From Prochlorothrix hollandica PCC 9006 = CALU 1027 (GTDB taxonomy: Bacteria; Cyanobacteriota; Cyanobacteriia; Prochlorotrichales; Prochlorotrichaceae): 41,522 nt of DNA. Made by a program: the position numbers and the translations under genes. The notes below the pieces were generated by a model that searched no databases, was not told the DNA's origin, and saw only the letters and a program-made list of their open reading frames with translations. Shown here one piece after another: positions 166 to 33,945 of this stretch. Position 1 is the stretch's first letter. Every line of letters starts with the position of its first letter. Location of the stretch: contig NZ_KB235933.1 in NCBI RefSeq assembly GCF_000332315.1, positions 889,020-930,541 of the forward strand, in the 5' to 3' direction.

Positions 166-2064
166 TTAATTTTCTGTTTGTCTTAGAAACCTGCTGAATG
201 TGGGCTGTAATATTGAATTAGAACAAGATTCCCAGTTACCTCTACCCAAATCTGCAAACACGCTGTTTTCAATAGTTGTCGCTTTAGGATGATAATTATT
301 GTTGGCAAACATTGGTTCCATTTTGTCGGCTTGCTGGTTCCAAAGTGTAAACATATTCTGATTTCTCAGATATTGTTGAAATGCGCCAAGAACATACTCT
401 CGTGTTTGCCACGAGTAACTCTGTCTACCTTCACAGCTAATTACACGAAGTAACTGAGCATGAATTAAAAGCTGACGAGAATTGAACATCTTCCACCAAT
501 GGGTGTACCCATGGTTTGGAATCCCACCATTATTCATGGAGGTCATAAATCCAAAAGGAACTTCGCTTTTAGGATAGTAATTTGCAAAATCCTCAGCTTT
601 TCGTTGTGCCCATTCAAAATCAGCGGCATCAAAAGTTGCTGTGTCTACCACTGGAGAGAAAAAACGTCCGCCATAGGATTGACTTTCAAGGTCACAGCTA
701 GGGCAATATCCCTGAATGGCATACATAGCAGTTGGGCCTGTCTTTTGTGTTGCCTTCACTGCTGTCAAAATATCTTGAGGAATCCCACAAGAACCGCAAG
801 TAAAATTTGATTTTTTTGGTACAGTTCCCTGGTTCGTTTTGATGGTGATACCTGTTTCTGGGCAGGTGATTTCATCAGGAAGAACACCCCTCACCTCAAT
901 TAACTTAATCTTGCTTGCTCGTTCGCGATTCCATGCAGCCGTTGTTTCTGGTAAATCTGTGACGCTACCACCATACTCAGTCCCATCAGATGCAGTCTTT
1001 GGTGAACCTGCCAGCCACTCAGGATGAATAAGCAAATGAAGTGAAACCTTTTTGTTTTTCCACTTTTGGTTAACAATTCCTTTCGAGTTCTGTCGATGGT
1101 TACAGTGAGGGCAAGTCACCATCTTGTCTTGATCCAATACGGCATAGGGCTTTTCATCCTCAGCCACTACCAACGGCACACCCGGAGCCATGCGTGCTTC
1201 GTCTTTTTCCTCATCAAACACACCGCCACACTCATCACATTCTCGGTCTTCCCACGCTTTCACTGTCAGCGTCTTCACTGCCATCACTGGGCTAGACGTA
1301 ATCGGTGTGCGGTGTCCACACTCCCGAATTGAGCAAGGTCCATGCTTTGCCCAGAAGACGTAAATAATTTCGGGTCCCTGATAGCGGTAGTCTTTGCGCT
1401 GCTCTGGAGTCAGTGCCAGCGGATCAAACGCCTCGCCCATCACCTTACCCGTCGCAATCTGCGTCCACTTGCCCTTGTGCCCTCTAGGACAATCGCAAGT
1501 GTAGAACGGCATAATTTGAGGCTTCACCTCCGCCTCAATATCTGCTAACAGCGCCTTGACTTCTTCCACATCAACCTGGGCCAGTTCATTCTTCACTACA
1601 AACCAGGCCACCGGATTCAGGTCACAGCCAAACATCTGCATCCCCAGCCGGGAGCCTTCCACAACGGTTGTGCCACCGCCCATAAAGATGTCAGCGACCT
1701 TAAGATGGCTGAGTGCGCCCTTCTTTTGATGGTTGGCATAATAGACATCCCAAACCGCCTTCGCTGCCTCCGCTGGATCATCCGGCGCTTTCATGCTGGC
1801 TGCTAGCAACATTGCCCGAAACACGCTAGATCTGCGTCGTGCCCACCACTTCGACATTTGATAGATTGGCTTACCCGCATTTCCCTCGATGATGGCGATC
1901 TGGTTAATGGGTAGAATCGGGAAATCGACCTCTAAACAGGTTTTTGGACGATTGGGATCAGAAAAATCGACCGTTTCGACGGCAACCGCCTTACCAGCCC
2001 CCACCGCCTTGGCAACTTCTTCTGCCAACCATTCCTTTTTCGTCTTTCCGTCTTTACGAGCCAT
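166..2064 (-). CDS. DUF1156-type adenine-specific DNA methyltransferase, C-terminally truncated
   Basis: This resembles the COG1743/DUF1156 family of adenine methylases with Zn-ribbon inserts. Seen in the sequence: KWWARRRSS (about 72-80), the SAM-binding ADIFMGGGTTVVEG (about 124-137), GCDLNPVAW (about 146-154), and several paired cysteines (CDC, CDECG, CPHC, CGSCG, CPSC) that fit zinc ribbons. Family members are usually about 900-1000 residues, with a DPPY-type catalytic motif after this point. Here the protein stops at 632 with no DPPY, and its last dozen residues look foreign. It is the last gene of a minus-strand operon, 87 bp after the nuclease-like gene. Methylation activity is therefore probably lost unless the missing part lies beyond position 1 as a separate piece. 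Confidence 0.82.
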   Translation of the reverse strand: MARKDGKTKKEWLAEEVAKAVGAGKAVAVETVDFSDPNRPKTCLEVDFPILPINQIAIIEGNAGKPIYQMSKWWARRRSSVFRAMLLAASMKAPDDPAEAAKAVWDVYYANHQKKGALSHLKVADIFMGGGTTVVEGSRLGMQMFGCDLNPVAWFVVKNELAQVDVEEVKALLADIEAEVKPQIMPFYTCDCPRGHKGKWTQIATGKVMGEAFDPLALTPEQRKDYRYQGPEIIYVFWAKHGPCSIRECGHRTPITSSPVMAVKTLTVKAWEDRECDECGGVFDEEKDEARMAPGVPLVVAEDEKPYAVLDQDKMVTCPHCNHRQNSKGIVNQKWKNKKVSLHLLIHPEWLAGSPKTASDGTEYGGSVTDLPETTAAWNRERASKIKLIEVRGVLPDEITCPETGITIKTNQGTVPKKSNFTCGSCGIPQDILTAVKATQKTGPTAMYAIQGYCPSCDLESQSYGGRFFSPVVDTATFDAADFEWAQRKAEDFANYYPKSEVPFGFMTSMNNGGIPNHGYTHWWKMFNSRQLLIHAQLLRVISCEGRQSYSWQTREYVLGAFQQYLRNQNMFTLWNQQADKMEPMFANNNYHPKATTIENSVFADLGRGNWESCSNSILQPTFSRFLRQTEN

Positions 2065-2151
2065 ATTTACTACCAGCCACTTTTAAGGTTACATTCAGAG
2101 AAATCGGAATTCTCCGTCTACATTGACTACAGTTCACCGTCACATCGGAAG

Positions 2152-2802
2152 TCATGCAGTTCCATTGTGATCGTCTTTCTGAACCAGCGCCACCATATGT
2201 TTCAAAACTCCCAGGACTGTGTATAGCTCATTGCCAGGATTGACCAAACTGAATAACCGAGAAAGCGCATATCGCGGCGTAGGTTGTTGAATTAGCTTTA
2301 CGAATAAGAAATTCCTGCCATTGGTAATCATGCCAAACACAGGTTTTTCAATCGTCGGGCTTGCCAACATATACGACAGCAGTTGTGCCCTCCCTTCATC
2401 CACATCCACCGCTGCTCGCTTCGCCTCAATCACCATGACCCAGAGCCGATCGCGCAATACCAACACATCGACATCGCCCCGAATCACCGTCCCTTCGTCT
2501 TCAGTCGCGATTTGAAACGATGGCTCTGACTTAATGTGAAACGGTTTCTGATACACATTAGCTAAGTCTAGAAGCGGTGATAGAACTACCATCTTGACCG
2601 TGTTTTCTAACAGGGAAGGATATTCCAGCAGATTGGAAAAACTTGATTTGACGCGATCGAGCCGTTGCTTTTCGGCTGCTGTCACTTCTGGTAGGTCAAT
2701 CTGCCACTCCTGAAAAAACTGCTCATCTTCGGTCAGTTCCAGGCTGAAGCGATCGCTCAACTCGTTAAGGGTTACGTTTTTTGCTTGAAGGGTCTGTACC
2801 AT
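2152..2802 (-). CDS. PD-(D/E)XK-type protein, type I restriction HsdR_N-like
   Basis: This 216-residue protein carries a nuclease-fold signature: RGDVDVLVL (about 108-116) followed by VMVIEAKRA (about 122-130). That gives the acidic residue and E-x-K spacing of the PD-(D/E)XK superfamily, as in the N-terminal domain of HsdR. Similar short stand-alone proteins are common in cyanobacteria and are often annotated as restriction endonuclease subunit R. It has no helicase motor. It starts at ATG 2802 with a GGAG about 9 bases upstream and lies 23 bp after the PglZ gene, so it is probably co-transcribed. I infer a defence role from its neighbours; no nuclease activity is proven. Confidence 0.72.
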   Translation of the reverse strand: MVQTLQAKNVTLNELSDRFSLELTEDEQFFQEWQIDLPEVTAAEKQRLDRVKSSFSNLLEYPSLLENTVKMVVLSPLLDLANVYQKPFHIKSEPSFQIATEDEGTVIRGDVDVLVLRDRLWVMVIEAKRAAVDVDEGRAQLLSYMLASPTIEKPVFGMITNGRNFLFVKLIQQPTPRYALSRLFSLVNPGNELYTVLGVLKHMVALVQKDDHNGTA

Positions 2803-2825
2803 GTCGTTTACTCCGCTTTAGTTGG

Positions 2826-3818
2826 TTACTCTGGTTTAAGCAGCTCAATGAATGGGGAAGCTATCTCCAGCACCGATAGCCCACCATGAGCTAGGGTCGG
2901 ATAGCCGCCTGCGCTCTTCCACTTCCGCCGCCCCAGCACAAACCGTTTCTGCCCATGCTGGGAAGTCAATACTAAATCAATCGGGGGAAACCAGGAACTC
3001 GTAGTGGTTACATCGTCAGACGATCGCCCACTCCTAAACACAGTTTTGAGATGTTTCGCTTGTTCCTCGGTTGCATCAGAGAATAGACCGCTGGCAGCAT
3101 AACCATGATCAGATGTAATGACGAGCTGCCGCTCTAGCGTGAGGCGATCGATGAGATCCCAAAACTCAGGGCTAGTTAACTTACTGGCTGCTTCGGTTGC
3201 CAGAGTCGCAAGCCCTTTACCTGGATCAGCGAAATCATGAATTCGAGAATCGGGCCACTGATGCCACAACACCCAGTTCGGCTCTAACCCCACTAAATCA
3301 AGACAGTCTAACCAGGGAAGATCAACACAGTCAGTTTGTGCCCCCTGTAGACGGTGAGTTCGGCTGGCTCGATTGTTTTCTAGATCAGAGCGTTGACCAA
3401 ATCCAAGTGCTTTTGCAAAAGGCGTTGTATCCCCTGGCAATTCTGCCCCCGTCACCCTGGCAGAAACCTGAAACCCTCGTTCTTTCGCACCATCCAGAAT
3501 CCAGGGTAATTCTCGAAGTGAAAGCCCATCCAGAATCAGCACCGCTTTTCCAGTTGACCGCGCTGCCCACCAATCTGCGAGAGCCTTCGAGGTTTGCTGT
3601 ACACTCTGCTCAAAATCATGCCAGAGTTCCCACCCACTGGAGGATAGCACCAAATCCAGATCTGCCAATGCGGTATCTCTTGCAATCACCTCTTTACTGA
3701 CTGATGTAGCTGTTAGAGGCGAACTACAGATCTCCCAGGCATATTCAAAAATCGCTTTCCACGCGATGTCTGAGGGAGCCGTCTGAATTTTTTCGAGTAG
3801 GTATCGGGGAGTAGTCAT
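2826..3818 (-). CDS. pglZ: PglZ-domain protein (BREX-like, alkaline phosphatase superfamily)
   Basis: This 330-residue protein has the landmarks of the PglZ domain: AVLILDGLSLRELPWI (about 92-107, metal-binding Asp), LVITSDHGYA (about 232-241) and AHGGLSVLEIASPFI (about 310-324). PglZ is the common marker of BREX systems and belongs to the alkaline phosphatase fold. At 330 residues it is much shorter than the usual BREX PglZ, so it is close to a bare catalytic domain. Its ATG shares one base with the TGA of the ATPase gene (TGATG) and follows a GGAGGAGA ribosome binding site, so the two are translationally coupled. The family is clear; the substrate is unknown. Confidence 0.82.
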   Translation of the reverse strand: MTTPRYLLEKIQTAPSDIAWKAIFEYAWEICSSPLTATSVSKEVIARDTALADLDLVLSSSGWELWHDFEQSVQQTSKALADWWAARSTGKAVLILDGLSLRELPWILDGAKERGFQVSARVTGAELPGDTTPFAKALGFGQRSDLENNRASRTHRLQGAQTDCVDLPWLDCLDLVGLEPNWVLWHQWPDSRIHDFADPGKGLATLATEAASKLTSPEFWDLIDRLTLERQLVITSDHGYAASGLFSDATEEQAKHLKTVFRSGRSSDDVTTTSSWFPPIDLVLTSQHGQKRFVLGRRKWKSAGGYPTLAHGGLSVLEIASPFIELLKPE

Positions 3819-6586
3819 CAGTTCTCCTCCTTTTCCAAATCAAGTTCATAGGTCAATCCGTCCGGCAAGCTCTTCAGCAGCTTCTGAAGTTGTGCCCCAG
3901 TAAGTGCCCCCACTTTCAGGGAAAGATTCTGGACAGGTGTAGCAGGCCCAATTCCCCACTCATCAGACACCTTGGCATAGAGATTCAAAGCAGACGTAGC
4001 AGGAGATGTCCGTCGAGCCACGCTCGTGGGCTGGGGATCGTCAAAAATTGAGCCATCGGATGATTCATTGGCACTAGAGGACGGTGGCAAGTCACCTGGA
4101 TAGCCATTACTACCAGAGTTCTCAGCATCACTCGGAGTTGCTGTTGGCAAAGAAACATCGTCTGTGATTCCATTACCAAGCTCAAGGTTAGGTTGAGGAA
4201 TTGAAGATGTCGGTACATTAGGTTGCGGCTCTACTCCATCTGAACTGGGAACAGATTGAGTCGGTAACAGTTTTGTCTCATCTAAATGTCTGCCAGTGCC
4301 CAGTTGTCGTCCTTTCATTCGATGCCAAGCAGCAGCTTCGTCCTCTCCAGGATTAGCCTGTAAATACTCCAAGTCGCGCAAGTTAATCGCAATGCCACCT
4401 CGGGCGCACACTCGAATCAGCCTTTCTTTAACCTGGGTTTCGCCTAGCCACGGGATGCAGTCTTTGCCTCCTGGTCGTGGCTCCTGCAATTCCCGTAAAA
4501 GCTTACCGACTGAATCCCTGTTTTCTGCGGCATCCCGCACATACTCCTCAAAATCTTCAGGAATGAAGACATCTTTACGAATGCGATCTTCAATAGCATC
4601 CGGAATCTTATCTCCCTGAGCTTTTACACCCTCAACGATAAATTCACAGCGTTTAGGGTCAGCATAATTCCAACTATTCAGTAGGGCAAAACGATCAAAC
4701 TGATTTTTGAGTTTATCTTTCAGTTCTTTTTCATAGCGAGTCTTAATCCCTCGATATTCGGAACTTTGGGCTTTCCATTGGTCCGCCACCATAATTGCTC
4801 GCGCCAAGACAAGCAATTCCCGATCCTGATAAATATTGGTAGTTCCTGACTTGGGCAATAGAAACCGAATGGTATTCCGCAGTCTTTGTACATGCTCTTT
4901 TAACCAAGTGCCTAGACGTTCATTGAACTTATCAGGCTCCTCTGGTAAGACGAGAATAGGTAGGCGATCGCCCCATCGGTCTGGATGCTCAGATGGATCT
5001 AAAGTGCTCCAAGGATCTTTTAGCCAAGTTTGTGGCAGAACGATTAGCCGAAACGATCTGGCTACAGCCTCAGAACCACCCAAGATGTAGCGAACTTGCT
5101 TGGCTAACTCTGCATCATCAGACCCGTCAGTAAACAGGCGATCGTTGCGAGCGTGTGCCATCAACTTTGTGGTGGCGTTCTCATCTTCACGGAAACTGTA
5201 TCGGTTGCCGTGGGGGTGAATGTTGAAACTATTATCAACGATCGTGGCTAACTCGACCTGGAAAGCATTATCGTCAATAGGCTGCGATCGAGTGATGTCA
5301 ATCTGAAGCGTTGCAGGTTCCGCACCCGCTAAATTTTCAACGGCAAGAGATCGCAACCACAATGCTCCCACAATTTCAGACAGATGAGGAACTTCATTCC
5401 CTTTAACAACAGCCTGTACTGCCGTCAAATTTCGCTGCGCTTTCTCCCTTAAAGAGGCATGATACTGATTTGAAACAGAATCTAATAGGGTTGCAATTTG
5501 CGTTGCGTCATCATCTAACTTAAAGTCAGCCGCTGTAACGATCGGGTTGCTCGCACCAGCCCCCTTAAACAGGTCTGCCAAAATTTTGATGAGGTCACGA
5601 GTTTCCTGAGCACTCGTCGCCACTAATACCTGATCCTCCAACAATCTCATTAAGATTGGAGAGTAGGGCCACGACTCAATAAATTCTCGCTGGTGGCGCT
5701 CAAAATCCGCTGGAGGAACTAAGGTTAATCGGAAATATTCAGAAACATGGGTTGCAATTAAGGTTGCAATATCGTCTTCATTAAGCTGCAACCGATTCTC
5801 AAATAAACGGTGCAGCAACAGACGACGGCGATCAAGGGCAGCATTTGGCCCTTTGAAGTCCACAACTACTGGATTAATCCGGTGAATCTGTTGATAAGCA
5901 TCCGTCGATCCATTACGAACTGAAACCACGAGCACCAGCAAATCTGGCTGCTCTTGCGCAATTTCAGACAAGAGCTGAATAAAATTGAATGCCCAGGTTC
6001 GCCAGGGATACTGTTTTGTATTCGTTAACCCGTCATACCAGGTTTGAAATTCATCCAGGATGAGCGCCGTTGGTTGGTTCTTGAGTAACTTTAGGAGTAA
6101 ATCGTAGGGCGGGACATCTGTCTTCTTATCCCCCATTGCCTCCCATTTTTCTCGGATGTACTGCCCATGCGGGTGGCGATCTAAGATCAAATCCCAAAGG
6201 AACTTATACTGCTGTCGGTGCAAACTCTCGCTAATAACATGCATTCCGCTCCGCAGATCCAACTCTGCTAATCGGGAATTTTCTAACTGGCTAGACCAAT
6301 GCTGCAACCAACTCTTTGCTTCTTCAGCATTCGTCAAAATATGGTAGAGCGCAGCTTCAAGATGGGATTTTCCCTGCCCCCGTTCACCTTTCAATACAAC
6401 AGGTAGACTCTGGTTTGGCCCGATCGCCTCGATCGCCTTCAGTAGATCGTAAGAGGGATAGGTAATTCCCAAGAAATTTGACGCTGGGATCTGTGTTGCC
6501 CCAGTATTTTTGTCGTTTGTCAATTCAATTGCTGTGCCCTTCAGTCGTCCGCCTTGGAACTCTTGACGTAGCTTCAGTCCAAGCAT
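3818..6586 (-). CDS. Large AAA+ ATPase of the DUF499/COG1483 type, BREX-like
   Basis: The protein is about 922 residues. It has a Walker A GERGQGKS (about 67-74) and a Walker B LILDEFQ (about 175-181) with the arginine-rich C-terminal half seen in large defence ATPases. I chose ATG 6586 rather than the upstream TTG at 6610 because GAGGAG sits about 10 bases before it. Residues about 770-880 are a low-complexity Ser/Pro/Asn-rich linker before a short C-terminal domain ending in a charged tail. It heads a minus-strand operon and overlaps the PglZ start. By analogy with BrxC/PglY and DUF499 proteins it is the energy-coupling component. The exact family needs a profile search. Confidence 0.75.
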   Translation of the reverse strand: MLGLKLRQEFQGGRLKGTAIELTNDKNTGATQIPASNFLGITYPSYDLLKAIEAIGPNQSLPVVLKGERGQGKSHLEAALYHILTNAEEAKSWLQHWSSQLENSRLAELDLRSGMHVISESLHRQQYKFLWDLILDRHPHGQYIREKWEAMGDKKTDVPPYDLLLKLLKNQPTALILDEFQTWYDGLTNTKQYPWRTWAFNFIQLLSEIAQEQPDLLVLVVSVRNGSTDAYQQIHRINPVVVDFKGPNAALDRRRLLLHRLFENRLQLNEDDIATLIATHVSEYFRLTLVPPADFERHQREFIESWPYSPILMRLLEDQVLVATSAQETRDLIKILADLFKGAGASNPIVTAADFKLDDDATQIATLLDSVSNQYHASLREKAQRNLTAVQAVVKGNEVPHLSEIVGALWLRSLAVENLAGAEPATLQIDITRSQPIDDNAFQVELATIVDNSFNIHPHGNRYSFREDENATTKLMAHARNDRLFTDGSDDAELAKQVRYILGGSEAVARSFRLIVLPQTWLKDPWSTLDPSEHPDRWGDRLPILVLPEEPDKFNERLGTWLKEHVQRLRNTIRFLLPKSGTTNIYQDRELLVLARAIMVADQWKAQSSEYRGIKTRYEKELKDKLKNQFDRFALLNSWNYADPKRCEFIVEGVKAQGDKIPDAIEDRIRKDVFIPEDFEEYVRDAAENRDSVGKLLRELQEPRPGGKDCIPWLGETQVKERLIRVCARGGIAINLRDLEYLQANPGEDEAAAWHRMKGRQLGTGRHLDETKLLPTQSVPSSDGVEPQPNVPTSSIPQPNLELGNGITDDVSLPTATPSDAENSGSNGYPGDLPPSSSANESSDGSIFDDPQPTSVARRTSPATSALNLYAKVSDEWGIGPATPVQNLSLKVGALTGAQLQKLLKSLPDGLTYELDLEKEEN

Positions 6587-6587
6587 T

Positions 6588-6822
6588 GGAACAGCTCCTC
6601 GTAAATCCAATCTATATAATTACCATTCCCCAAGCCTCAGATGCACACTGCCTTAAACGTCTGGCAATTAGTCATTGACAGGTGCTTTGATAACACTCTG
6701 AATCCATAGTAATCATTGATTGAAGAAAACGTCAACCAAAAACTTGATGAAAAAGTCAATACGAGATTACGCTGTGCATGTTGATGTGAAAAGTAAGCTC
6801 TCGTAATACAGCTTCTGAGTTA
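6588..6822. other. Upstream region of the defence operon
   Basis: This AT-richer stretch lies between the ATPase start and the DUF29 remnant. It must hold the operon promoter if the operon is transcribed on its own. A TATATA-like box lies at about 6612-6619 on the minus strand, but I see no convincing -35 partner. I see no gene and no strong operator palindrome. Confidence 0.3.
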
Positions 6823-21898: not shown

Positions 21899-22248
21899 CG
21901 TCTACGATCGCTTTCATCCGTACTTCCTGTCGATCAGGATTAATGGAGATCAGGATTATTAAGCTGAGGGGATGTGATGACAGAATAAGAGCAGAGTGAC
22001 TCACAAAAATGGCCAGAACCCCACACCACCGGTAGAGTCAGGACACCTGACCCCTACAGAGACAAAAAGACCCAGGTTGGCCTGTGGCTGGTTGCCTCCA
22101 AGGCGGATTGCCCCCAATCCCCTTGTTCCCCAGCGTGTTTATCATAGAGTTTGCCCTAGTGCTGCGATCTCGATCGTTCTGAGTTCGTCTCAGGTTGTTT
22201 GTGCTGAGCTTAATCTCCCCTTTATGCGGGCATTGCCCTTTCCCCCCT

Positions 22249-24204
22249 ATGGCCACCCAGACCCTACATCACTATCTATCTCCGTCCTGGAAACTGGTTA
22301 TTCAGAGTCAGCCCTCTGTCCTCTCCCAATGGATGGAGCAACTGGTCGTCCAACAGCTACAATTTCAGCTTATTTCGGTTCAAGGGCCGTCCCTAGGGTC
22401 AGAATCGCAACCTGAGGAGATTCCAGATCCCGGATCAGGGGCAAACTCCAGGTGGAGGGTGGAGCCGTCCCCTGCTGCTGTCGAGGCTAAGGGACAGGTG
22501 CCAGTTTTGATCGGGGATCAAGATGTGTTGCAACAGCTTCATAGAGCGCTTCAGACCTATGTACAGCAGTATCTAGGGCAGCAGCACCTAGGGCAGCAGT
22601 CCCATCGCTCCTGGTGGCCAGAGACGGAGGGCTGGAGGGGTACAATCGCCGAGGCAGAGGATGACCGGGTGGATCCGATCGCCGATGCCAATCCCCCACG
22701 ATCGCCGTCGGATCTGGGGTTACCGCCGTTATCCCCTAGCTCTACCCCTCGTCCCACCCCTGAGGGTGCCGCTGCTGAATTATCCAAACCTGACCCGTCT
22801 GCCGGCCCATCTGCCGACCCCTTGCCCGATAGGTTTCAAGGCAACTCGTCTGCCCCTGGGGACCTGTTACCCATTGAAGATGCGGCCTTGGGGAACGTTG
22901 GGGTTCCCCTGGATCTGGATTTAGATCCGGAGACCCTTGCAGCCCTGGAGAACCATCCCAATCAGGATTCTCCCCCAGGGAGTCAACCCTGGGGATGGGG
23001 GGGGGAGGCTGCTGGATCCGATCGTCCCCCAGCAACCCAGCCCCTGGATCCCTTTGCTATTCTCGATGGCGATCCTGTCCCCAATCCCCTCCAGATGGAA
23101 TTCCTGGGGGGGCTGTGCCATCGCCTGTCTGGGGCTGGGGATACCACCCTCGACTTCAGTACAGTGGAGTTGTTTGATTTGGTGGACGTGCTGGACCAGT
23201 GGAATGGAGCCATGGCCTTGGTCCCGGAGTTATGGCCGGCAGGGCGATCGCGGCAATTTCCGGCTTGGACGCGATCGGCGGCCCTCGTCTTGGTGACAGT
23301 AGGGGTAACGGTGGCCGGTCTGGAACTGGTGCAACGCTATGGACGGGATAACGTGGCGGTGGCTCCCCTCACCGAAGCGGCCAGCCCAGACAACGCCGGT
23401 CAGGAACCGCTACTGTTCCCCTTGGGCGACTTGCCCCCCTTGGGGGAGGGTTCCCCGGCCTTAACCCCTGGGATAGGGGATGGGATGGGACAGGGTCTGC
23501 CCCCGGTGCCGGGAACCCCTGGCTTGAATGGCCAAGTCACCCTGGAGGGCGATCGGCCCTTGCCCCAGTCCGATGCCTCCACGTTGCCCCCGCCGCCCCC
23601 CCCCAATTGGCTGATGCTGCCGCCGCCCCCTAGCAGCTCTTACACCTTTCCCACCTTCGCCCCCCCCGCCACGGTTTCCCCGCCCCAAGCCGTCTCCCCC
23701 AGTCTACCTGCCCCCCCTGCCATCGCTCGGTCCAGTAGTGGTGCATCGTCTGGCGCATCGTCTGGTGCGTCGTCTGGTGCGTCGTCTGCCCTGGCTCCTT
23801 CCGGATCTACCCAGGGATCTGTCTCGAAAACCAACGAGGCGGAAGCAGTTGCAGGGGCTGCGGCTTCCAGTCCAGCGGCTCTGGAGTCTAGGGATCAGGT
23901 CGCCGTGGATGCCGCCACCACCGGGGCACAGTTGGCAGGATTGCAGGGCTATTTCCAAAGCACCTGGCAACCCCCCGCTGCCCTGACCGAACCCCTGAGC
24001 TATCGTCTGGTGGTGGGACCCAGTGGTTCCCTCCAAAGCATCACGCCCCTGGGGGGATCTGCGGGTACTTTTATCGATCGCACCGGGATTCCACTCCTGG
24101 GGGAACCCTTTGTTTCCGCTGCTGCTGATGGCTTTAGCCGTGTGGTGGTGGCGACCCTCTATCCCGATGGGGGTGTGGAGGTCTATTTGGAAGGGGTGCA
24201 GTAA
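22249..24204 (+). CDS. DUF4335-like cyanobacterial protein
   Basis: This 651-residue protein starts at ATG 22249. The N-terminal domain (about 1-115: HYLSPSWKLVIQSQPSVLSQ and later VLIGDQDVLQQLHRALQTYV) and a second block around 290-350 (LDFSTVELFDLVDVLDQW) fit DUF4335, a cyanobacteria-specific family of unknown function. A hydrophobic segment, RSAALVLVTVGVTVAGLELV (about 345-364), follows. Then come a long Pro/Gly/Ser-rich linker with a 12-bp repeat (SSGA units, near 23735-23785) and a C-terminal beta-rich domain (YRLVVGPSGSLQSITPLGG). It is probably membrane-anchored with its C-terminus outside the cytoplasm. It is flanked by repeats R4 and R5 on both sides. Confidence 0.7.
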   Translation: MATQTLHHYLSPSWKLVIQSQPSVLSQWMEQLVVQQLQFQLISVQGPSLGSESQPEEIPDPGSGANSRWRVEPSPAAVEAKGQVPVLIGDQDVLQQLHRALQTYVQQYLGQQHLGQQSHRSWWPETEGWRGTIAEAEDDRVDPIADANPPRSPSDLGLPPLSPSSTPRPTPEGAAAELSKPDPSAGPSADPLPDRFQGNSSAPGDLLPIEDAALGNVGVPLDLDLDPETLAALENHPNQDSPPGSQPWGWGGEAAGSDRPPATQPLDPFAILDGDPVPNPLQMEFLGGLCHRLSGAGDTTLDFSTVELFDLVDVLDQWNGAMALVPELWPAGRSRQFPAWTRSAALVLVTVGVTVAGLELVQRYGRDNVAVAPLTEAASPDNAGQEPLLFPLGDLPPLGEGSPALTPGIGDGMGQGLPPVPGTPGLNGQVTLEGDRPLPQSDASTLPPPPPPNWLMLPPPPSSSYTFPTFAPPATVSPPQAVSPSLPAPPAIARSSSGASSGASSGASSGASSALAPSGSTQGSVSKTNEAEAVAGAAASSPAALESRDQVAVDAATTGAQLAGLQGYFQSTWQPPAALTEPLSYRLVVGPSGSLQSITPLGGSAGTFIDRTGIPLLGEPFVSAAADGFSRVVVATLYPDGGVEVYLEGVQ

Positions 24205-26600: not shown

Positions 26601-26652
26601 TAATCGTTAACCGTCCTCGCTAACTGTGGCCCTTGGAGCAACAACAGAATTC

Positions 26653-28365
26653 ATGATCCGTGGTAAATCCCAAAAGCTGAAGTTAATGGTTGTGGACGAT
26701 GAGCCAGACAACCTAGATTTGCTCTATCGAACGTTCCGCCGTGAATTTGATGTGTTCCGAGCTGAGGGTGGATCTAAGGCTCTATCGATGCTGGAGGAAA
26801 GCGGGGAAATGGCGGTGATCATTTCCGATCAGCGTATGCCCGGTATGAGTGGCACAGAATTTCTGAGCCGCACCGTCGATCGCTTTCCCAATACCATGCG
26901 CATCGTGCTCACGGGCTACACCGATGTGGCGGATTTGGTGGAAGCCATTAACTCTGGCCAGGTGTTTAAGTACATCACCAAGCCCTGGGAACCGGAGAAC
27001 CTCAAGGTGGTGGTGGCCCAAGCGGCTGAGACCTACGAGGCCATCTCGCGCCGAACCCAGGAATTGGGCCGTGCCCTCCAGCGAGAATCCCTATTTAATG
27101 AAATTGTCAGCGCTATTCGGGAGTCTTTGGACTACCACGGGATGCTCCAAACCATTGTTGAAACCATTGGCAATAATCTGGGGGCTGACCTGGGTCTCCT
27201 CTATGCCTATGGCCACGATTGCCTGGTGTCGCCACCGTTTCTGTTCCAGAACCTTCAGGGGGAAGCGTCTTGTACCCTGCCCAGCTTAACGGTGGGGGGG
27301 CAATGGGTCGCAACGGATAATGCCATGGTGCAAGCCTTGGAAGCCATGGTGTCCCACATTTGCGACCACCCTAAACAACGCTCCTGCGAAGTGCGCAGCA
27401 TCCCTGAGGGCCATTATGTGGGGTTACCCCTCACCTATCAGCAGGAGTTGTTGGCGGTTCTCGTGCTCTATCGCCAAGGACAACAGCTCCGGTGGCAGGA
27501 GGATGATTTGCAACTGCTGGAAAACGTGGCGGAACAGTCGGCGATCGCCGTCTCCCAGGCCCGACTGTATCAATGGACCCAGGAACAGACGGAGCGGCTC
27601 CAAGCAGAACTGGAGGTGGCGCGGCACATTCAGGCCAATTTGTTGCGGCAAGATATGCCGATTCTGGAGGGGCTGAAGGTACAAGCCTGTTGCCATCCCG
27701 CCCGCGCCGTGGGGGGGGACTTTTTTGAGGTCTATGCCCATCCCCAGGGGGATGTGTGGTTAGCGGTGGGGGATGTGTCGGGCAAGGGGGTGCCAGCGGC
27801 CCTCTATATGGCTAGTACCCTATCCCTGTTGCGCCGGGAATTAACCCAGGAAATCTCCCCAGAGCCGGAGGCGGTGATTCGCAATCTGAACCACAGTTTG
27901 CTCCAGGATTTGGTCAATAACAACTGCTTTGTGACGGCGGTATTGTTGCGGTATCGTCCGGGGGATGGCACCTTGGCCTATACCAATGCAGGGCATATTT
28001 ACCCGATGATTTGGAACCCGTCCCAGGTGGCTCAGGGGCTGCAAACGGATCCCAATTACTTGACCACGCGGGGAATTCCTTTGGGGATTTTACCGGAGTG
28101 GAAAGGTCAATCGGGGGTAGGCTGTTTGCAGTCTGGTGAGGTGTTGTTATTGGCCAGCGATGGCATTACCGAGGCCAGCATTAGCCCGGACCCCGCCGAT
28201 CCTAAGGGGGGCGTAGAAGGGCTGATGTTGCAACAGGGGGGATTATGGGATATTTTGGCCCAGTATTCCCAGGCACCGGCCCTAGAGCAGTTATTGGACT
28301 TTATTCAGTCCCACAGTCCCACCCAGGACGATGATCAAACCCTTGTTTCCTTGGAGATCTTCTAG
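26653..28365 (+). CDS. Response regulator with GAF and PP2C (SpoIIE-type) phosphatase domains
   Basis: A 570-residue soluble signalling protein. It has a REC domain (about 9-125) with acidic pocket VVDDEPDN, phospho-acceptor Asp in IISDQRMPG (about 59) and lysine in YITKPW. A GAF-like domain spans about 160-305, then a short coiled linker and an RsbU/SpoIIE-type PP2C domain (about 330-570) with AVGGDFFEVY, VGDVSGKGVPAALYMA and LLLASDGITEA metal sites. Phosphorylation of REC probably switches phosphatase activity towards an anti-sigma-antagonist-like protein. ATG 26653 is my choice; GTG 26626 is also open. The RsbW-like gene follows after three bases. Confidence 0.92.
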   Translation: MIRGKSQKLKLMVVDDEPDNLDLLYRTFRREFDVFRAEGGSKALSMLEESGEMAVIISDQRMPGMSGTEFLSRTVDRFPNTMRIVLTGYTDVADLVEAINSGQVFKYITKPWEPENLKVVVAQAAETYEAISRRTQELGRALQRESLFNEIVSAIRESLDYHGMLQTIVETIGNNLGADLGLLYAYGHDCLVSPPFLFQNLQGEASCTLPSLTVGGQWVATDNAMVQALEAMVSHICDHPKQRSCEVRSIPEGHYVGLPLTYQQELLAVLVLYRQGQQLRWQEDDLQLLENVAEQSAIAVSQARLYQWTQEQTERLQAELEVARHIQANLLRQDMPILEGLKVQACCHPARAVGGDFFEVYAHPQGDVWLAVGDVSGKGVPAALYMASTLSLLRRELTQEISPEPEAVIRNLNHSLLQDLVNNNCFVTAVLLRYRPGDGTLAYTNAGHIYPMIWNPSQVAQGLQTDPNYLTTRGIPLGILPEWKGQSGVGCLQSGEVLLLASDGITEASISPDPADPKGGVEGLMLQQGGLWDILAQYSQAPALEQLLDFIQSHSPTQDDDQTLVSLEIF

Positions 28366-28368
28366 GAT

Positions 28369-28806
28369 ATGAAAAGTGAATTGCGTATCCCTAGTGACTT
28401 AAAGTTTTTGGCTGTGGTGGAAAACTGGCTCCTGGGCTGCTTGGAAACGGAGTTGGGCGATCGGGTCGATTGGCCACGGCAGGCCAGCCGGTTCCGGTTG
28501 GTGTTGGTGGAAGCCTATTCCAATGTGGTGCGCCATGCCCACCGGGATCAGCCCAATCTCTCGGTGTTGGTGCGGCTGGATCTCTGCGATCGGGATATTG
28601 CTTTAGAAATTTGGGATCAAGGCTCTGGCTATAACATTGAGCACTATTTACCGCCGGAACCTGCCGTGATGCGGGAGGGGGGATATGGCTGGCTGATTAT
28701 GCAGCGCCTCATGGATCGGGTGGAATATTCCCTGCAACTGGATGGCCATAATTGCTTGAAACTGCTCACCAGTTTGCCGGAGTCAGGGGACGTGAACGAA
28801 GTCTAA
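28369..28806 (+). CDS. RsbW-like anti-sigma/Ser kinase, HATPase_c fold
   Basis: A 145-residue GHKL ATPase with N box LVEAYSNVVRHAH (about 47-59), G1 box IWDQGSGY (81-88) and G2 box GGYGWLIMQRLMD (104-116). Proteins of this size act as anti-sigma factors and kinases of STAS-type antagonists (RsbW, SpoIIAB). With the upstream PP2C it forms the two catalytic halves of a partner-switching module; the antagonist substrate is not in the window. Three bases separate it from the regulator, so it is surely co-transcribed. The target is unknown. Confidence 0.88.
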   Translation: MKSELRIPSDLKFLAVVENWLLGCLETELGDRVDWPRQASRFRLVLVEAYSNVVRHAHRDQPNLSVLVRLDLCDRDIALEIWDQGSGYNIEHYLPPEPAVMREGGYGWLIMQRLMDRVEYSLQLDGHNCLKLLTSLPESGDVNEV

Positions 28807-29049: not shown

Positions 29050-30180
29050 TTAGATGGCGGCGATCGATAACACATATTCCCCCTGGTTCATGCTTTCATT
29101 GGTGGAGCAGTCAAAGACAAAGCCCACATCCTGGGACTCAATGGTAATGGTGGCGGGGAGGGTGCGGTATTTGTTGTAGGTCACCAGGGTATAGAGGGGA
29201 TCCCCCACCTGTACCGCTTGCCCCACCGCTACCCGATCGCGCAGGAAGCCCCCCGCCACCGCATAGTAGCGCCGCAGTTGGCTTTTGCGCACCAGGGGAA
29301 AGGGTTCGGCACTGGGGGGTAGGGGATAGCCCGGTGCTTGCAGCACCCCTTTATGGGCTAAGTAGTTGAGAATTCCGTCATAGCCCCGGCTGAGGGATTG
29401 GGGGTTCGTGGCCATGCCCGATCCCAGTTCCAGGGTCCACGACTCCAGATCAAACTGCACCGATCGGCCCAACAGCCGTAGCTCTCGTTCTAGGGCAACC
29501 CAGGGCTTGAGAAAGGCTTCATCCAGGGCATTGCCATCATACTGATCCAAAACAATGCCAAAGGCCACCTGAAAGGATTGGGCGCTGGCCGATCGTCCCT
29601 GGCCACAGTAAAGATGATCCAAGGCTTGATTACTGGAACTGTGGAGATCCAACAAATAGTCGGCATCAGCACAAAGGGATTGCAGGCGATAGCGGTAAAT
29701 ATCCGTTAGGGCTGCACCCCTGGACCCCTGGCAGTGGCTATGGTGCTGGGCAAAACTGTCCAGCAGCCGGTGGCGATAGCGGGTTTGGAGGCTGTCCAGA
29801 TCATCCTGGTGGTGAGCCTGGGCAAAATCCTTGAGATCTGGGCAGAATTGTTCGTAATCCCAAAAAATACGGTTCCAATCTTCGCCACTGTAGGGATTAT
29901 ACCGTCCGGTAGCAAAATGGTGCGATCGTTGGTTGACCCCCAAGGGATTACACACGGGTACGAGCCAAATTTCTCCCCGTAAACACTCAGTCTCCAGATC
30001 CTGCAACATCGTCAGCAGATCAAAAATCACCCCATTACCCGCAATTTCTGCCCCATGGAGATTGGATTGAATATAGACTTTTTTGCCGGGATGGTGGCCG
30101 ACAAAGCGATAAACCTGAAGGGAGAGGCGATCGCCGGAGGCCATTTGGCAGAGGGGCAAGGTGGCAATATTGGGTTGCAT
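29050..30180 (-). CDS. Succinylglutamate desuccinylase/aspartoacylase-family zinc enzyme
   Basis: A 376-residue protein of the AstE/AspA (M14-like) fold. Zinc ligands are H42 and E45 in LHGAEIAGNG and a later His in LLDLHSSSN (about 175-183); the general acid/base Glu lies in WTLELGSG (about 247-254). NPLGVNQRSH and FATGRYNP fit the arginine-rich carboxylate site. These enzymes remove an acyl group from an amino acid or related amide. The C-terminal 80 residues (VGQAVQVGDPLYTLV) look like a lipoyl-type barrel extension. It is on the opposite strand to both neighbours. The substrate is unknown. Confidence 0.85.
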   Translation of the reverse strand: MQPNIATLPLCQMASGDRLSLQVYRFVGHHPGKKVYIQSNLHGAEIAGNGVIFDLLTMLQDLETECLRGEIWLVPVCNPLGVNQRSHHFATGRYNPYSGEDWNRIFWDYEQFCPDLKDFAQAHHQDDLDSLQTRYRHRLLDSFAQHHSHCQGSRGAALTDIYRYRLQSLCADADYLLDLHSSSNQALDHLYCGQGRSASAQSFQVAFGIVLDQYDGNALDEAFLKPWVALERELRLLGRSVQFDLESWTLELGSGMATNPQSLSRGYDGILNYLAHKGVLQAPGYPLPPSAEPFPLVRKSQLRRYYAVAGGFLRDRVAVGQAVQVGDPLYTLVTYNKYRTLPATITIESQDVGFVFDCSTNESMNQGEYVLSIAAI

Positions 30181-30379: not shown

Positions 30380-31636
30380 ATGACACAGAATTTCCTGGAA
30401 CTAGCGAAAAAAGGCGATCCTAGGGTTCTTGCTGGCCTGATCAATCGCGCATTGCAAAGTAAAGGCATTGCCGTCAAAGCAACTCAGCAGGGGGACATAA
30501 CCCACTTTCTGTTTGAGTGTAGCCAGGACATTCCAGAACCCAATGCATTGACAGACTATCTGATTCAGGCGCTAACTCGTCTGAAAGCTCCGCCCCTGTC
30601 ACTGCTTCTATCTGTCAGAAAAACGGGGCAGCGCGAAGTCGCGTGGCAACGTCGATTAAATTTTGATCCCGATGCAACAGAGGCATTGCCTACGGTCTCT
30701 CCGCCCCCAGGACTGGGGGTAGATACTGCGGCACCGATCGGTCACAGTATCCCCCAGGCCAGTAACCCCCAGGCCAGTAACCCCCAGGCCAGTAACCCCC
30801 AGGAATCTACAGAAGACACGACCCAATTGTGGGATGACTGTGTTTCCAGTCCCCCGACGGCGGATTTATCCATGGCTGCAGCGGCTGGAGTGGCGGGGGC
30901 TATCCTCGGTACTGCCTCGTCTACCCTCCTGGGGGATAGTGCTGAGGGGGAGGCTGAGGCCGGGGATGATGGTACCCACCTGGACGAGGCTGACAATTCC
31001 TGGGATCAGGAGGATGGATTGGCGGGCAGCGAGCCTGCGATCGATCCAGTGAGCGTTACCCTGGATCCGGAAGCCCCCGATCCCTACGATAGTAATACTG
31101 AGGATCCAGAAGCCCGATCCCTGTCCTTTTTCCCCTTTGTGACCTCTGCGATCGTGGCTCTGTTATTTGCGTTAGCGGGGCTAGGATACCGTTTCTTTTA
31201 TTACCCCTCTCAACAGAATCCGTCCTCAGCTAATCCCGATGTAGTGGTGACAACGCAGCCGGAGATTCCTGCCGATGGCGGAGTAACCCCCGATGGCGGA
31301 GTAACCCCCGATGGCGGAGTCATGCCTGATGTCTCCCCGGATCCCGTGGTGCCAGACCCCACTGAAACCCCTAGCGCTTCAGACTTGGGTTCCCGCCTGG
31401 AGACCTTAGGGCAGAATCCTTGGTATGAAGGGGTGACCGTTGCCATGGAAGCGGCCATTTTGACCCAAAATGCAACCACCTATGAAGAATGGGACGAAAT
31501 CGCCACCTATTGGGAAAAGGCCATTGAACTCATGGCAGCCGTACCACCGACGGATCCCAACTATGCCCAAGCCCAGGAGCGGGTGACCACCTATGGAAAG
31601 AATTTAGATTACGCGCTCCAAAATGCGGGTTTCTAA
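30380..31636 (+). CDS. Single-pass membrane protein, tandem paralog A
   Basis: I do not recognise a named family. From ATG 30380 the 418-residue product has an N-terminal domain (about 1-100) with GDPRVLAGLINRALQSKGIA and HFLFECSQDIPEPNALTDYL. A low-complexity linker contains NPQAS repeats (near 30751-30807), followed by one membrane helix (SAIVALLFALAGLGYRFFYY, about 253-272). A PDGGVTP repeat (31273-31327) precedes a C-terminal helical domain with NATTYEEWDEIATYWEKAIE. The N-domain is probably cytoplasmic and the C-domain periplasmic. The following gene has the same layout. The ORF opens at 30272 but I see no start signal there. Confidence 0.65.
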   Translation: MTQNFLELAKKGDPRVLAGLINRALQSKGIAVKATQQGDITHFLFECSQDIPEPNALTDYLIQALTRLKAPPLSLLLSVRKTGQREVAWQRRLNFDPDATEALPTVSPPPGLGVDTAAPIGHSIPQASNPQASNPQASNPQESTEDTTQLWDDCVSSPPTADLSMAAAAGVAGAILGTASSTLLGDSAEGEAEAGDDGTHLDEADNSWDQEDGLAGSEPAIDPVSVTLDPEAPDPYDSNTEDPEARSLSFFPFVTSAIVALLFALAGLGYRFFYYPSQQNPSSANPDVVVTTQPEIPADGGVTPDGGVTPDGGVMPDVSPDPVVPDPTETPSASDLGSRLETLGQNPWYEGVTVAMEAAILTQNATTYEEWDEIATYWEKAIELMAAVPPTDPNYAQAQERVTTYGKNLDYALQNAGF

Positions 31637-31643
31637 AGGACTG

Positions 31644-31673
31644 ACAGCAGTCCGAGATAGGTGGTGTGGTGTG
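31644..31673 (-). repeat. Repeat R3, partial copy
   Basis: ACAGCAGTCCGAGATAGG followed by TGGTGTGGTGTG matches the left third of reverse-oriented R3. The rest is lost. Confidence 0.55.
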
Positions 31674-31772
31674 GGAGATGCCAGGGGTACAATGCTATCC
31701 TCTGGATAGTTCTGGCCGAGAATCTAACCCTACCGTCAGGGTTGAGGGGAAGTCCCCATCGGCAGTCGGTTT

Positions 31773-33461
31773 ATGCAGCCGCGATCGCCCATGTCTCCTT
31801 CAGCAAAAACTCTCCAGGTCTTGGCGACCATGTTAAATCGGGGTCTCAAGCCCCGAGGTGTGGTGGTGCGGGTATCCTATCGCGATCGCCACCTTCACTT
31901 TCTATTAGAGGGATCCCCACTGCCCTCAGAGGCGGTGTACACGCCCCTGCTACACCAAGGTTTTACCGTGTTGCAGGCATCGGCAGCATGGCAGGAAGGC
32001 CAGCCCCTGGCTGAGTTCAAGTCCTTGGCAGGGGTGATTATTTATGGTCGAGTCCGGGGACAAAAACAGATCGGATGGATCAGCCGTTTTTCCTTGGATG
32101 AGGCCATCACCCCCGACTCTCCCCAGGGTCAATTGTCCCCAGAAGCATCCCCCGCCGTCCTGGAGGAGGAAGAAACCCTGGCCTTAACGCCGGAGGCGAT
32201 CCTAGCCCCTGACTTATTTGGTGCTGCGGCCAATGTTCCCCTGGTGGTGCCTGCTGCGGAGCCATCTCCTGTCACCGATGATCTGTCCCCAGGGTTGCCC
32301 ACCTTGGTCTTAGATGCCCCAGCCTCCAGGTCTTCGCCACCCCCTGCACCTGCCTGGGATCTGGTAGAAGACAATACCGCCGTTCAGGAACTGTTGCAGT
32401 TAGATGCTTTGATGCCGGAACCCAATACCCCCCCCATCTCTGAACCCTGGCATAATAGCCCGGATACTAGGCACTCTGACCGGGAACCTGCCACGCTGCC
32501 CGGTTTCAATCCGTTTCCAGGCAAAGCCGATGCAACCCTGCCTGAGGGACGATCGGGGGCCGATCGCGATCGCACCCTCCAACAACCGAACCCCGATCGT
32601 TCGACTCCGGCTCCGTTGCCCCCTCCGGGCCATAGTCCCCCGCGCACCCCTGAAGGGGCAGAGACCCAGGCTGCTGCGGCCTTGGACAGAATTCCCACCT
32701 TGGGATCCCAAGGTTTGCTAGCCAAGCTGCTGTTAGCGGGATCCTTGGTGTTACTGCTGGGGGGCGGTGGCTTCTACCTCTGGTTTATGCCCCGTCAAAC
32801 GAAGGTTCTGGCCGAAATTCAACTCCAGCTTTTGGCGGTTGAGGATTTACCAGTGCAGAGCTTGGATCAGTTGAAAACCACGGAGTCAACCTTGCAGACC
32901 CTCCTCGATCGCCTCCAAGGCATTCCCTGGATTGCTGGTTCTGCCCATGGCCAAGCCCAGGAGCAGGCGGAACAGTTGCGCCAGAACCTGGAGGTGATCC
33001 AACTGCGCCGGGAGTCTGAGACGGCAGCGCGGGACAATTTGCAAGAGGCCAAACGGTTAGGGGCGGAGGCCACCCAAGCCTGGGAAACACAGCAGATCAC
33101 GGATCCGATCGTTCTCCAAACCATTTATGAAAAGTGGGTGGCGGCTCAGTATTTCTTGACCCTGATTCCCCCTGAAAGTTGGGCCTATGGGGAAGCTCAA
33201 CCCCTCAAGGTGAGCTATACCCAGAACCTGTGGCGGGTTTCCCAATTGCAACAGCAACCCGATCGCCCCACCAGCGTCCCCCTGGGAACTCTGGGGAATC
33301 CAGATGGTGTAAACCCTGACTTGGCTGGGATTCCGGGTGCTGACGATCTGGATCCGGAGGCTTTGACGGATCCAACCGTGGGTACTGACCTGGAGACCTT
33401 GCCCTTTGAGTCCCAGGAGTTGACCGAGGAGGAAACGGATCCCACTTTCCCCAACCCCTGA
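31773..33461 (+). CDS. Single-pass membrane protein, tandem paralog B
   Basis: A 562-residue protein with the same layout as its upstream neighbour. It has a short N-domain (about 8-125: TLQVLATMLNRGLKPRGVVV and LHFLLEGSPLPSEAVYTPLL), a 190-residue Pro/Ser/Ala-rich linker and one membrane helix (LLAKLLLAGSLVLLLGGGGF, about 316-335). A C-terminal helical domain (LNRGL-independent, with LGAEATQAWETQQ and YEKWVAAQYFLTLI) and an acidic tail follow. N-domain residues align loosely with paralog A, so I infer duplication and divergence. No ribosome binding site decides between ATG 31773 and ATG 31791. The function is unknown. Confidence 0.65.
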   Translation: MQPRSPMSPSAKTLQVLATMLNRGLKPRGVVVRVSYRDRHLHFLLEGSPLPSEAVYTPLLHQGFTVLQASAAWQEGQPLAEFKSLAGVIIYGRVRGQKQIGWISRFSLDEAITPDSPQGQLSPEASPAVLEEEETLALTPEAILAPDLFGAAANVPLVVPAAEPSPVTDDLSPGLPTLVLDAPASRSSPPPAPAWDLVEDNTAVQELLQLDALMPEPNTPPISEPWHNSPDTRHSDREPATLPGFNPFPGKADATLPEGRSGADRDRTLQQPNPDRSTPAPLPPPGHSPPRTPEGAETQAAAALDRIPTLGSQGLLAKLLLAGSLVLLLGGGGFYLWFMPRQTKVLAEIQLQLLAVEDLPVQSLDQLKTTESTLQTLLDRLQGIPWIAGSAHGQAQEQAEQLRQNLEVIQLRRESETAARDNLQEAKRLGAEATQAWETQQITDPIVLQTIYEKWVAAQYFLTLIPPESWAYGEAQPLKVSYTQNLWRVSQLQQQPDRPTSVPLGTLGNPDGVNPDLAGIPGADDLDPEALTDPTVGTDLETLPFESQELTEEETDPTFPNP

Positions 33462-33836: not shown

Positions 33837-33840
33837 GGCT

Positions 33841-33945
33841 TGGGGTACCCCCAGAGATTGGGGTACCCCCAGAGATTGGAGTACCCCCAGAGATTGGGGT
33901 ACCCCCAGAGATTGGAGTACCCCCAGAGATTGGGGTACCCACAAA
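33841..33945 (+). repeat. 18-bp tandem repeat with GGGGTACCCC palindrome
   Basis: Five full units of TGGGGTACCCCCAGAGAT start at 33841, 33859, 33877, 33895 and 33913, plus a partial at 33931. Two units read GGAGTACCCC instead. The array ends ten bases from the ctaE stop, so it lies in the 3' leader of the cta transcript. Confidence 0.92.

Follow-up and report, generated by a model that had tools for sequence, protein, structure and literature searches.

The stretch of DNA analysed here, called the window below, comprises 41,522 nucleotides of the cyanobacterium Prochlorothrix hollandica PCC 9006 = CALU 1027 (contig NZ_KB235933.1, positions 889,020 to 930,541 of the forward strand). Our subject is a pair of adjoining genes in it, both on the + strand and 136 base pairs (bp) apart, in which an initial annotation, made from the sequence alone, had recognised two membrane proteins. 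Both open reading frames (ORFs) are present at 30380-33461, and in each protein hydropathy predicts a single membrane helix between an N-terminal domain (the N-domain) and a C-terminal domain (the C-domain; Table 1). The start region of the upstream protein, MTQNFLELAKKGDP, compared with the family consensus TQxNxxELAKQGDP, fits the ATG at 30380. In a scan of Pfam and NCBIfam neither protein has a match at an accepted score, and PADLOC finds no match for either.

Table 1. The gene pair and its parts, in window coordinates (aa, amino acids; HMM, hidden Markov model; pLDDT, predicted local distance difference test; TRF, Tandem Repeats Finder)
Feature	Coordinates	Strand	Basis
Upstream gene, 418 aa	30380..31636	+	ORF with ATG start and family-type start; N-domain, linker, membrane helix, short linker, C-domain
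Upstream N-domain, residues 8-94	30401..30661	+	HMM borders; independent HMM 2.9e-23; AlphaFold2 pLDDT 85.9
Upstream acidic low-complexity linker, residues 101-245, net charge -29	30680..31114	+	Composition
Tandem DNA repeat, 15 bp x 3.9 (NPQAS)	30745..30803	+	TRF score 111
Upstream predicted transmembrane helix, about residues 250-268	31127..31183	+	Hydropathy
Tandem DNA repeat, 18 bp x 2.7 (PDGGVT), after the membrane helix	31272..31320	+	TRF score 98
Upstream C-domain, residues 347-409, predicted three-helix bundle	31418..31606	+	Independent HMM 9.8e-28; AlphaFold2 pLDDT about 97 over three helices
Downstream paralogue, 562 aa	31773..33461	+	ORF with ATG start
Downstream N-domain, residues 14-108, short insertion	31812..32096	+	HMM borders; independent HMM 6.6e-17; BLASTP against upstream 3e-9
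Downstream Pro/Ala/Glu/Asp-rich linker, without tandem DNA array	32097..32711	+	TRF, composition
Downstream predicted transmembrane helix, about residues 314-332	32712..32768	+	Hydropathy
Possible degenerate half copy of the C-domain, downstream residues 362-406	32856..32990	+	Score of 4.6 bits only
Downstream C-domain, residues 422-486	33036..33230	+	HMM without window rows 5.2e-10; unlisted by genome search
Downstream acidic low-complexity C-terminal tail, net charge -15	33258..33458	+	Composition

The initial annotation took the two proteins for paralogues and made this depend on their N-domains being alike. Compared by sequence, the N-domains are homologous: BLASTP aligns them with 30% identity over 96 columns (E 3e-9), and an HMM of 20 relatives from which window sequences were absent matches them at single-comparison E-values of 2.9e-23 (upstream) and 6.6e-17 (downstream). 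The case for the C-domains is weaker. BLASTP gives 0.02, an 82-row HMM from which every window row had been taken out scores the two at 9.8e-28 and 5.2e-10, a 36-row HMM with window rows removed gives 1.8e-31 for the upstream copy and only 1.5e-5 for the downstream one, and a 37-row search of the own genome does not list the downstream C-domain at E 0.001. The downstream C half does match sequences at two other loci (L032, 8.5e-19; L033, 3.5e-13; loci and genomes are referred to by L and G numbers), both of which match the C-domain model. In a FastTree phylogeny of 88 N-domains the window pair forms a clade with local support of 0.87, and we therefore consider it likely that a local duplication gave rise to the pair, though an old one. 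By branch length the N-domain of L107 is slightly nearer to each window N-domain than these are to each other.

The N-domain, about 88-100 residues long, appears to represent an undescribed family, without a matching model in the copies of Pfam and NCBIfam searched. Twenty members gave only weak, scattered matches and no convincing family, among them DacZ_P in two members (best E 0.0009), Flagellin_IN in three (best 0.0015), RM44 in one (0.0015) and a single ACT match (0.11). A search of PDB sequences with an N-domain profile likewise returned no good match; the best, 9om3 ('C2-B', E 0.021), is followed mostly by TRPV1 chains, and these matches were taken as chance. In the open PMC literature, a scope that leaves out subscription journals and is no proof of absence, we recognised no paper that describes the domain.

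Among genomes of the phylum Cyanobacteriota, 71 of 292 match the upstream protein and 29 of 292 the downstream one, while an alignment of the N-domain finds 100 of 386 genomes in 59 of 143 genera. Since few candidates were scored per genome (at most six, four and twelve for the three queries), the copy numbers are minimum values, and weak carriers may have escaped notice. Eighteen genomes of a set of 20, the own genome included, hold the domain; the number of matches is 11 in the own genome and rises to 13 in a relative. The 11 own-genome copies lie on eight ORFs. Two of these are the window pair, and a third, whose product has 295 aa, is built in the same way; the others encode a protein with CD225 and pilin_GH, one with EcsC, one of 1279 aa with four copies, one of 231 aa for which two helices are predicted, and a multi-helix protein whose N-domain is C-terminal. 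The four-copy protein (L071:1657-5493, + strand) also has a weak DUF1574 match just below the cut-off (E 1.3e-6), and multi-copy proteins like it, of 1,066-1,223 aa, occur in several relatives. Our searches were mostly confined to the cyanobacterial phylum, and all matches are cyanobacterial. A scan of 84,980 species' genomes with two peptide patterns, which reach close relatives only, gave 120 confirmed stretches, and the 80 of them examined are all cyanobacterial by title. With one strong N-domain as the query, tblastn found two plasmid records, each from a cyanobacterium and with the annotation 'hypothetical protein', and no phage record. Because the pattern-scan and plasmid matches are cyanobacterial and phages gave none, the domain is likely to be absent outside cyanobacteria.

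Judged by the architectures in which it is found, the N-domain is a promiscuous terminal module borne by very different proteins. After 231 ORFs had been collapsed to 172 by identical N cores, the first N-domain starts no more than 70 residues into the ORF in 166, lies near the end in two and sits internally in four. Twenty-nine of the 172 are multi-copy (two copies in 24, three in two and four in three), and 44 also have the C-domain. The multi-helix protein of the own genome (L070:2813-4144, - strand) carries its copy at the C-terminus, complete up to the stop, and for this reason we describe the domain as terminal rather than strictly N-terminal. Fusion partners recognised with Pfam include NB-ARC/STAND-type NTPases with HYDIN-type Ig domains (L080 above the NB-ARC cut-off, L075 below it), a Ser/Thr kinase with ankyrin repeats (L077), TPR with GUN4 (L082, L172), CheW (L084), CD225 with pilin_GH (L072), pilin_GH (L170), EcsC (L074, L158, L164, and L183 just under the cut-off), the capsule-type PGA_cap (L085, L087, L105), WD40 (L145), GRAM (L176) and PrsW (L152, L214). 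Removal of ORFs truncated at a locus end, and of N cores more than 60% alike in a position-by-position comparison, left 73 representatives; at E 1e-5, among the 25 of 108 families listed, EcsC is the most frequent, in four of these, followed by PGA_cap, pilin_GH and PrsW in three each.

Genes for the N-domain also recur side by side. Two of them occur in 18 of the 80 named loci, always on one strand, and 15 of these 18 are apparently one Nostocales arrangement. Other instances are L173/L174 and L185 and, from other genomes, L088 and L083 (three genes each), L096 and L097 (two each) and the window; on contig 89 of genome G297, two matches on separate ORFs are spaced by about 1.5 kb. The survey of gene neighbourhoods that the initial annotation had proposed finds same-strand N genes in other genomes as well. 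Adjacent copies are generally not closest relatives: one copy of L088 is nearest its neighbour, which does not hold for those of L096, L097 and L185. Stand-alone N genes of Nostocales are followed by a gene whose product has about five predicted helices and a C-domain, its own N-domain being optional (L111, L115-L118, L122 and others, about 5.6-7.0 kb). Compared for synteny with one further locus of its own genome and 12 from other genomes, the window shows the similarity of N- and C-domains, a weak match of its response-regulator gene in L094 and, in L081, an aspartoacylase-like neighbour.

Structure prediction followed by Foldseek, suggested by the initial annotation for both domains, gave models of both and no significant Foldseek match for either. 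AlphaFold2, run on a 62-row alignment with the upstream N-domain as the modelled sequence and the downstream one as a row, predicts with a mean pLDDT of 85.9 a small mixed alpha/beta domain with the order helix, helix, strand, strand, helix, strand, strand. The nearest folds are 4hlb, alpha-lytic protease prodomain-like (Z 8.8, root-mean-square deviation (rmsd) 3.3, 85 residues), and 3lnv, the C-terminal part of a fatty acyl-AMP ligase (Z 8.4). The KH domain of KhpB/EloR scores Z 7.7 (rmsd 2.3, 72 residues), and lower matches include ribosomal S3, BolA-type folds and ring-building motifs (FliF RBM2 Z 6.3, PrgK Z 6.1). The order of helices and strands is what the modelled domain has in common with prodomain-like, type II KH and BolA folds, from which it differs in its 8-16% identity and in the lack of any Foldseek match at E 0.001 or better. 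By the guide of the comparison tool such likeness lies at the edge of a common arrangement; the KH, ring-building and prodomain matches serve as fold leads only.

Two alternative readings start from these leads. That the N-domain is a KH-like nucleic-acid-binding domain, as the KhpB/EloR, ribosomal S3 and BolA-type matches and a carrier with a weak HTH_24 match below the cut-off (L078) might suggest, seems highly improbable. KH domains are marked by a GXXG loop between two helices. By eye this loop is absent from the N-domain alignment, a single helix separates strands 2 and 3 in the model, and the other recognised partners are not nucleic-acid proteins. Alternatively, the domain could be a localisation or oligomerisation element that forms homo-oligomers or sorts its carriers to one membrane, in the manner of the FliF and PrgK ring-building motifs, and recruits no other proteins. 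Many carriers are predicted membrane proteins, which agrees with this, as does the presence of ring-building motifs among the weak fold matches; their Z values, however, fall within the range of a common arrangement, and several carriers lack a hydropathy helix altogether (for example L071, L084 and L103). We regard this alternative as unlikely.

The initial annotation likened the layout of the two proteins to a cytoplasmic sensor joined to an outer domain. The division into an inner and an outer part is borne out by the relatives. Among 44 ORFs with both N- and C-domain, 12 have several helices and one has none; in the remaining 31, each with a single helix, lysine and arginine within 15 residues are more frequent before the helix than after it in 27, less frequent in two and equal in two (97 against 33 when summed). 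Two C-only relatives (L003, L024) have a lipobox-like motif after a hydrophobic start, and three others (L004, L011, L015) look similar by eye. Kinase and NB-ARC matches precede the predicted helix of their proteins, and PGA_cap follows it. Given the charge bias, the lipoprotein-like relatives and the positions of these partners, the N-domain is likely to be inside and the C-domain outside in the family at large, and for the window pair this topology is only carried over from relatives.

The sensor half of the comparison has not been borne out, and for a promiscuous terminal module found on very different proteins an adaptor fits at least as well. ACT, PAS and DacZ_P-type domains are examples of sensors of small molecules or metabolites. 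Were the N-domain a cytoplasmic domain of this sort, it would regulate whatever output is fused to it, and the two window proteins would be receptors signalling between it and the outer C-domain. A single domain in front of very different outputs is compatible with this, and so are the weak DacZ_P and ACT matches. Invariant residues are few (only L41, L68 and W89 reach 90% in the 62-row alignment), and the two to four copies per protein, like the stand-alone N genes beside N fusions, fit an adaptor better. We consider a sensor somewhat unlikely.

The C-domain is predicted to be a 63-residue three-helix bundle (the pLDDT in Table 1 refers to the helices of the upstream copy). By fold it comes closest to three-helix designs, MIT domains and TPR proteins, at Z of about 10, which is not decisive when the tool suggests 13 for helical bundles, and at a Foldseek E of 0.3. 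In Pfam, 37 members give weak TPR-type scores (TPR_12 at E 7e-4 in one, ARM_TT21 in 11), the window member has no match above the cut-off, and MIT is not among the 25 of 42 weakly matching families listed. The 'Tri-helical' family PF24465, tried as a C-domain family, was found in 0 of 20 genomes, where no control gave a signal, and may therefore still apply. The own genome has the C-domain listed six times, on four ORFs, and elsewhere it occurs without the N-domain in up to three copies. These observations invite the alternative that the C-domain is the working part, an extracytoplasmic peptide-binding bundle of MIT or TPR type, for which the N-domain is merely the anchor. The low Z, the Foldseek value and the Pfam result for the window member speak against it, and it appears quite unlikely. 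The MIT domains of Vps4, spastin and MITD1 resemble the C-domain in being three-helix bundles of similar size (Z of about 10); they differ in that no match is significant and that the C-domain is predicted, from its relatives, to be extracytoplasmic.

The reading that we tentatively favour, rating it somewhat short of an even chance, is that the pair are single-pass, membrane-anchored members of an undescribed cyanobacterial family of adaptor-like domains. The N-domain would lie in the cytoplasm and the C-domain bundle across the membrane, as the topology of relatives suggests. Most likely, N-domains bind to one another, whether homotypically or between paralogues, so that carriers (STAND-type NTPases, a kinase, GUN4/TPR, PrsW, CheW, capsule-type and pilin-like proteins) could be gathered at the membrane; the long acidic linkers of the pair would act as flexible tethers, and the outer C-domain would most likely meet a partner in the cell envelope. 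Because cyanobacteria attach the N-domain to many signalling and cell-surface proteins, probably in order to unite them, the pair looks like one piece of a large, as yet undescribed protein network. Of this reading, the analysis itself shows the homology, the domain borders, the numerous fusions, the terminal position and the repeated occurrence of same-strand tandem copies; the topology has the support of relatives only, and the binding between N-domains, the recruitment and the outer partner are inferred.

Several observations weigh against the adaptor reading. Two of 20 members touch the sensor-domain model DacZ_P, and the fold of the N-domain is a general one. The window pair itself lacks the charge bias of its relatives, with one lysine or arginine before the helix and one after it in the upstream protein, and one before and two after in the downstream protein. 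In L077 the ankyrin repeats, and in L082 GUN4, come after a predicted helix, which is unexpected for cytoplasmic-type domains if the helices are real. The window N-domains are only moderately related, their tree distance of 1.64 being the 28% point of all pairs. Every partner family listed (25 of 108) is found in no more than four of the 73 representatives, and several carriers have no recognised partner. Finally, the ORFs scanned contain no fusion to VMAP, iSTAND, GAP1 or another core of the effector-associated domain systems discussed below, though none of these was searched for.

At stake is a domain of which many cyanobacteria have as many as a dozen copies in the genome, and for which the Pfam and NCBIfam copies searched contain no model. 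Its carriers look unrelated, yet they have the module in common with STAND-type NTPases, kinases and surface proteins. If the adaptor reading is true, one domain model would link many unannotated membrane proteins and provide a testable interaction network for cyanobacterial signalling, perhaps for defence.

The initial annotation also reported DNA-level repeats in the linkers of both proteins. The arrays are real and exceed chance, as none of 300 whole-ORF and none of 300 linker-only codon shuffles reaches a TRF score of 98 (maxima 66 and 59), but both belong to the upstream gene, and the PDGGVTP array lies past the membrane helix; in the downstream gene no array scores 50 or more. Just outside the pair, at 33840-33940, is a further tandem array of 18 bp x 5.6 (TRF score 188) with GGGGTACCCCC-like units. 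An aspartoacylase-like gene (29050-30180, - strand) adjoins the pair, and its counterpart in genome G292 (L081:1-495, - strand) adjoins the N-C gene of that locus; the two are 74% identical over 89 aa, and their orientation relative to the N-C gene differs. Shortly upstream, at 26626-28806 (+ strand), are a response regulator-GAF-SpoIIE-type phosphatase gene and then a gene for a histidine-kinase-type ATPase. A DUF4335 protein encoded at 22195-24204 (+ strand; Pfam E 4.4e-9) is by eye alike in layout, with an N part, a Pro-rich linker and a hydrophobic segment, and is perhaps a second cyanobacterial family of the same build. At 166-6610 (- strand) are genes for a DUF1156/HmaB-type DNA methylase-like protein, a PD-(D/E)xK-like protein and, by eye, a PglZ-like protein and a large ATPase-like protein. 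PADLOC has matches for the first two of these only, and the cluster is perhaps one of defence genes.

Among known systems, the closest parallel to the N-domain is that of the effector-associated domains (EADs). According to PMC7159879 (published in 2020) and PMC8195603 these are small, terminal, non-enzymatic domains whose homotypic contact brings effectors and signalling proteins together. In the former account a genome holds many of them, their fusion partners are STAND-type NTPases, kinases, GUN4 and repeat domains, neighbouring genes have the domain in common, and three of them (EAD 4, 5 and 10) are alpha+beta. In the following respects the N-domain is like them: it is small and terminal in the proportions given above, has no enzymatic features, is predicted to be alpha/beta, is present in many copies per genome with fusions to comparable effector and signalling proteins, and is found in adjacent genes. 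As to adjacent copies being mutually closest, a trait of the class, the window copies form a clade with L107 slightly nearer by branch length, and no such closeness is seen for L096, L097 and L185. The N-domain is unlike EADs in matching no EAD profile and in the lack of any visible link to a ternary-system core. The 20 members touch 14 Pfam families at E 1 and no EAD among them, although EAD4 (PF19959), EAD5 (PF19957) and EAD6 (PF19958) are in the copy used. Against four EAD4 sequences (from four of six loci), hhalign gives a probability of 0.4%, and the one EAD4 of the own genome lies elsewhere than the N-domain. Searches for EAD5 and EAD6 found 0 of 20 genomes, with no control giving a signal, where 18 of the same genomes hold the N-domain. 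Because the architectural features tested are shared and no EAD model matches, we call the N-domain adaptor-like and not an EAD. The EACC1 two-gene membrane system, compared by its description in PMC7159879 only, is likewise multi-gene and places short domains to either side of one membrane helix; it is described there from actinobacteria and some proteobacteria, where its partner gene is of caspase type. More speculatively, and we rate this as less likely than not, cyanobacteria may have a widespread, undescribed homotypic adaptor system in which one small domain, borne by about ten proteins in many larger genomes, would wire surface modules (capsule-type enzymes, pilin-like proteins and the three-helix C-domain) to proteins of STAND-type NTPase, kinase, chemotaxis and GUN4 type, in a way comparable to the death-fold adaptors of animals.

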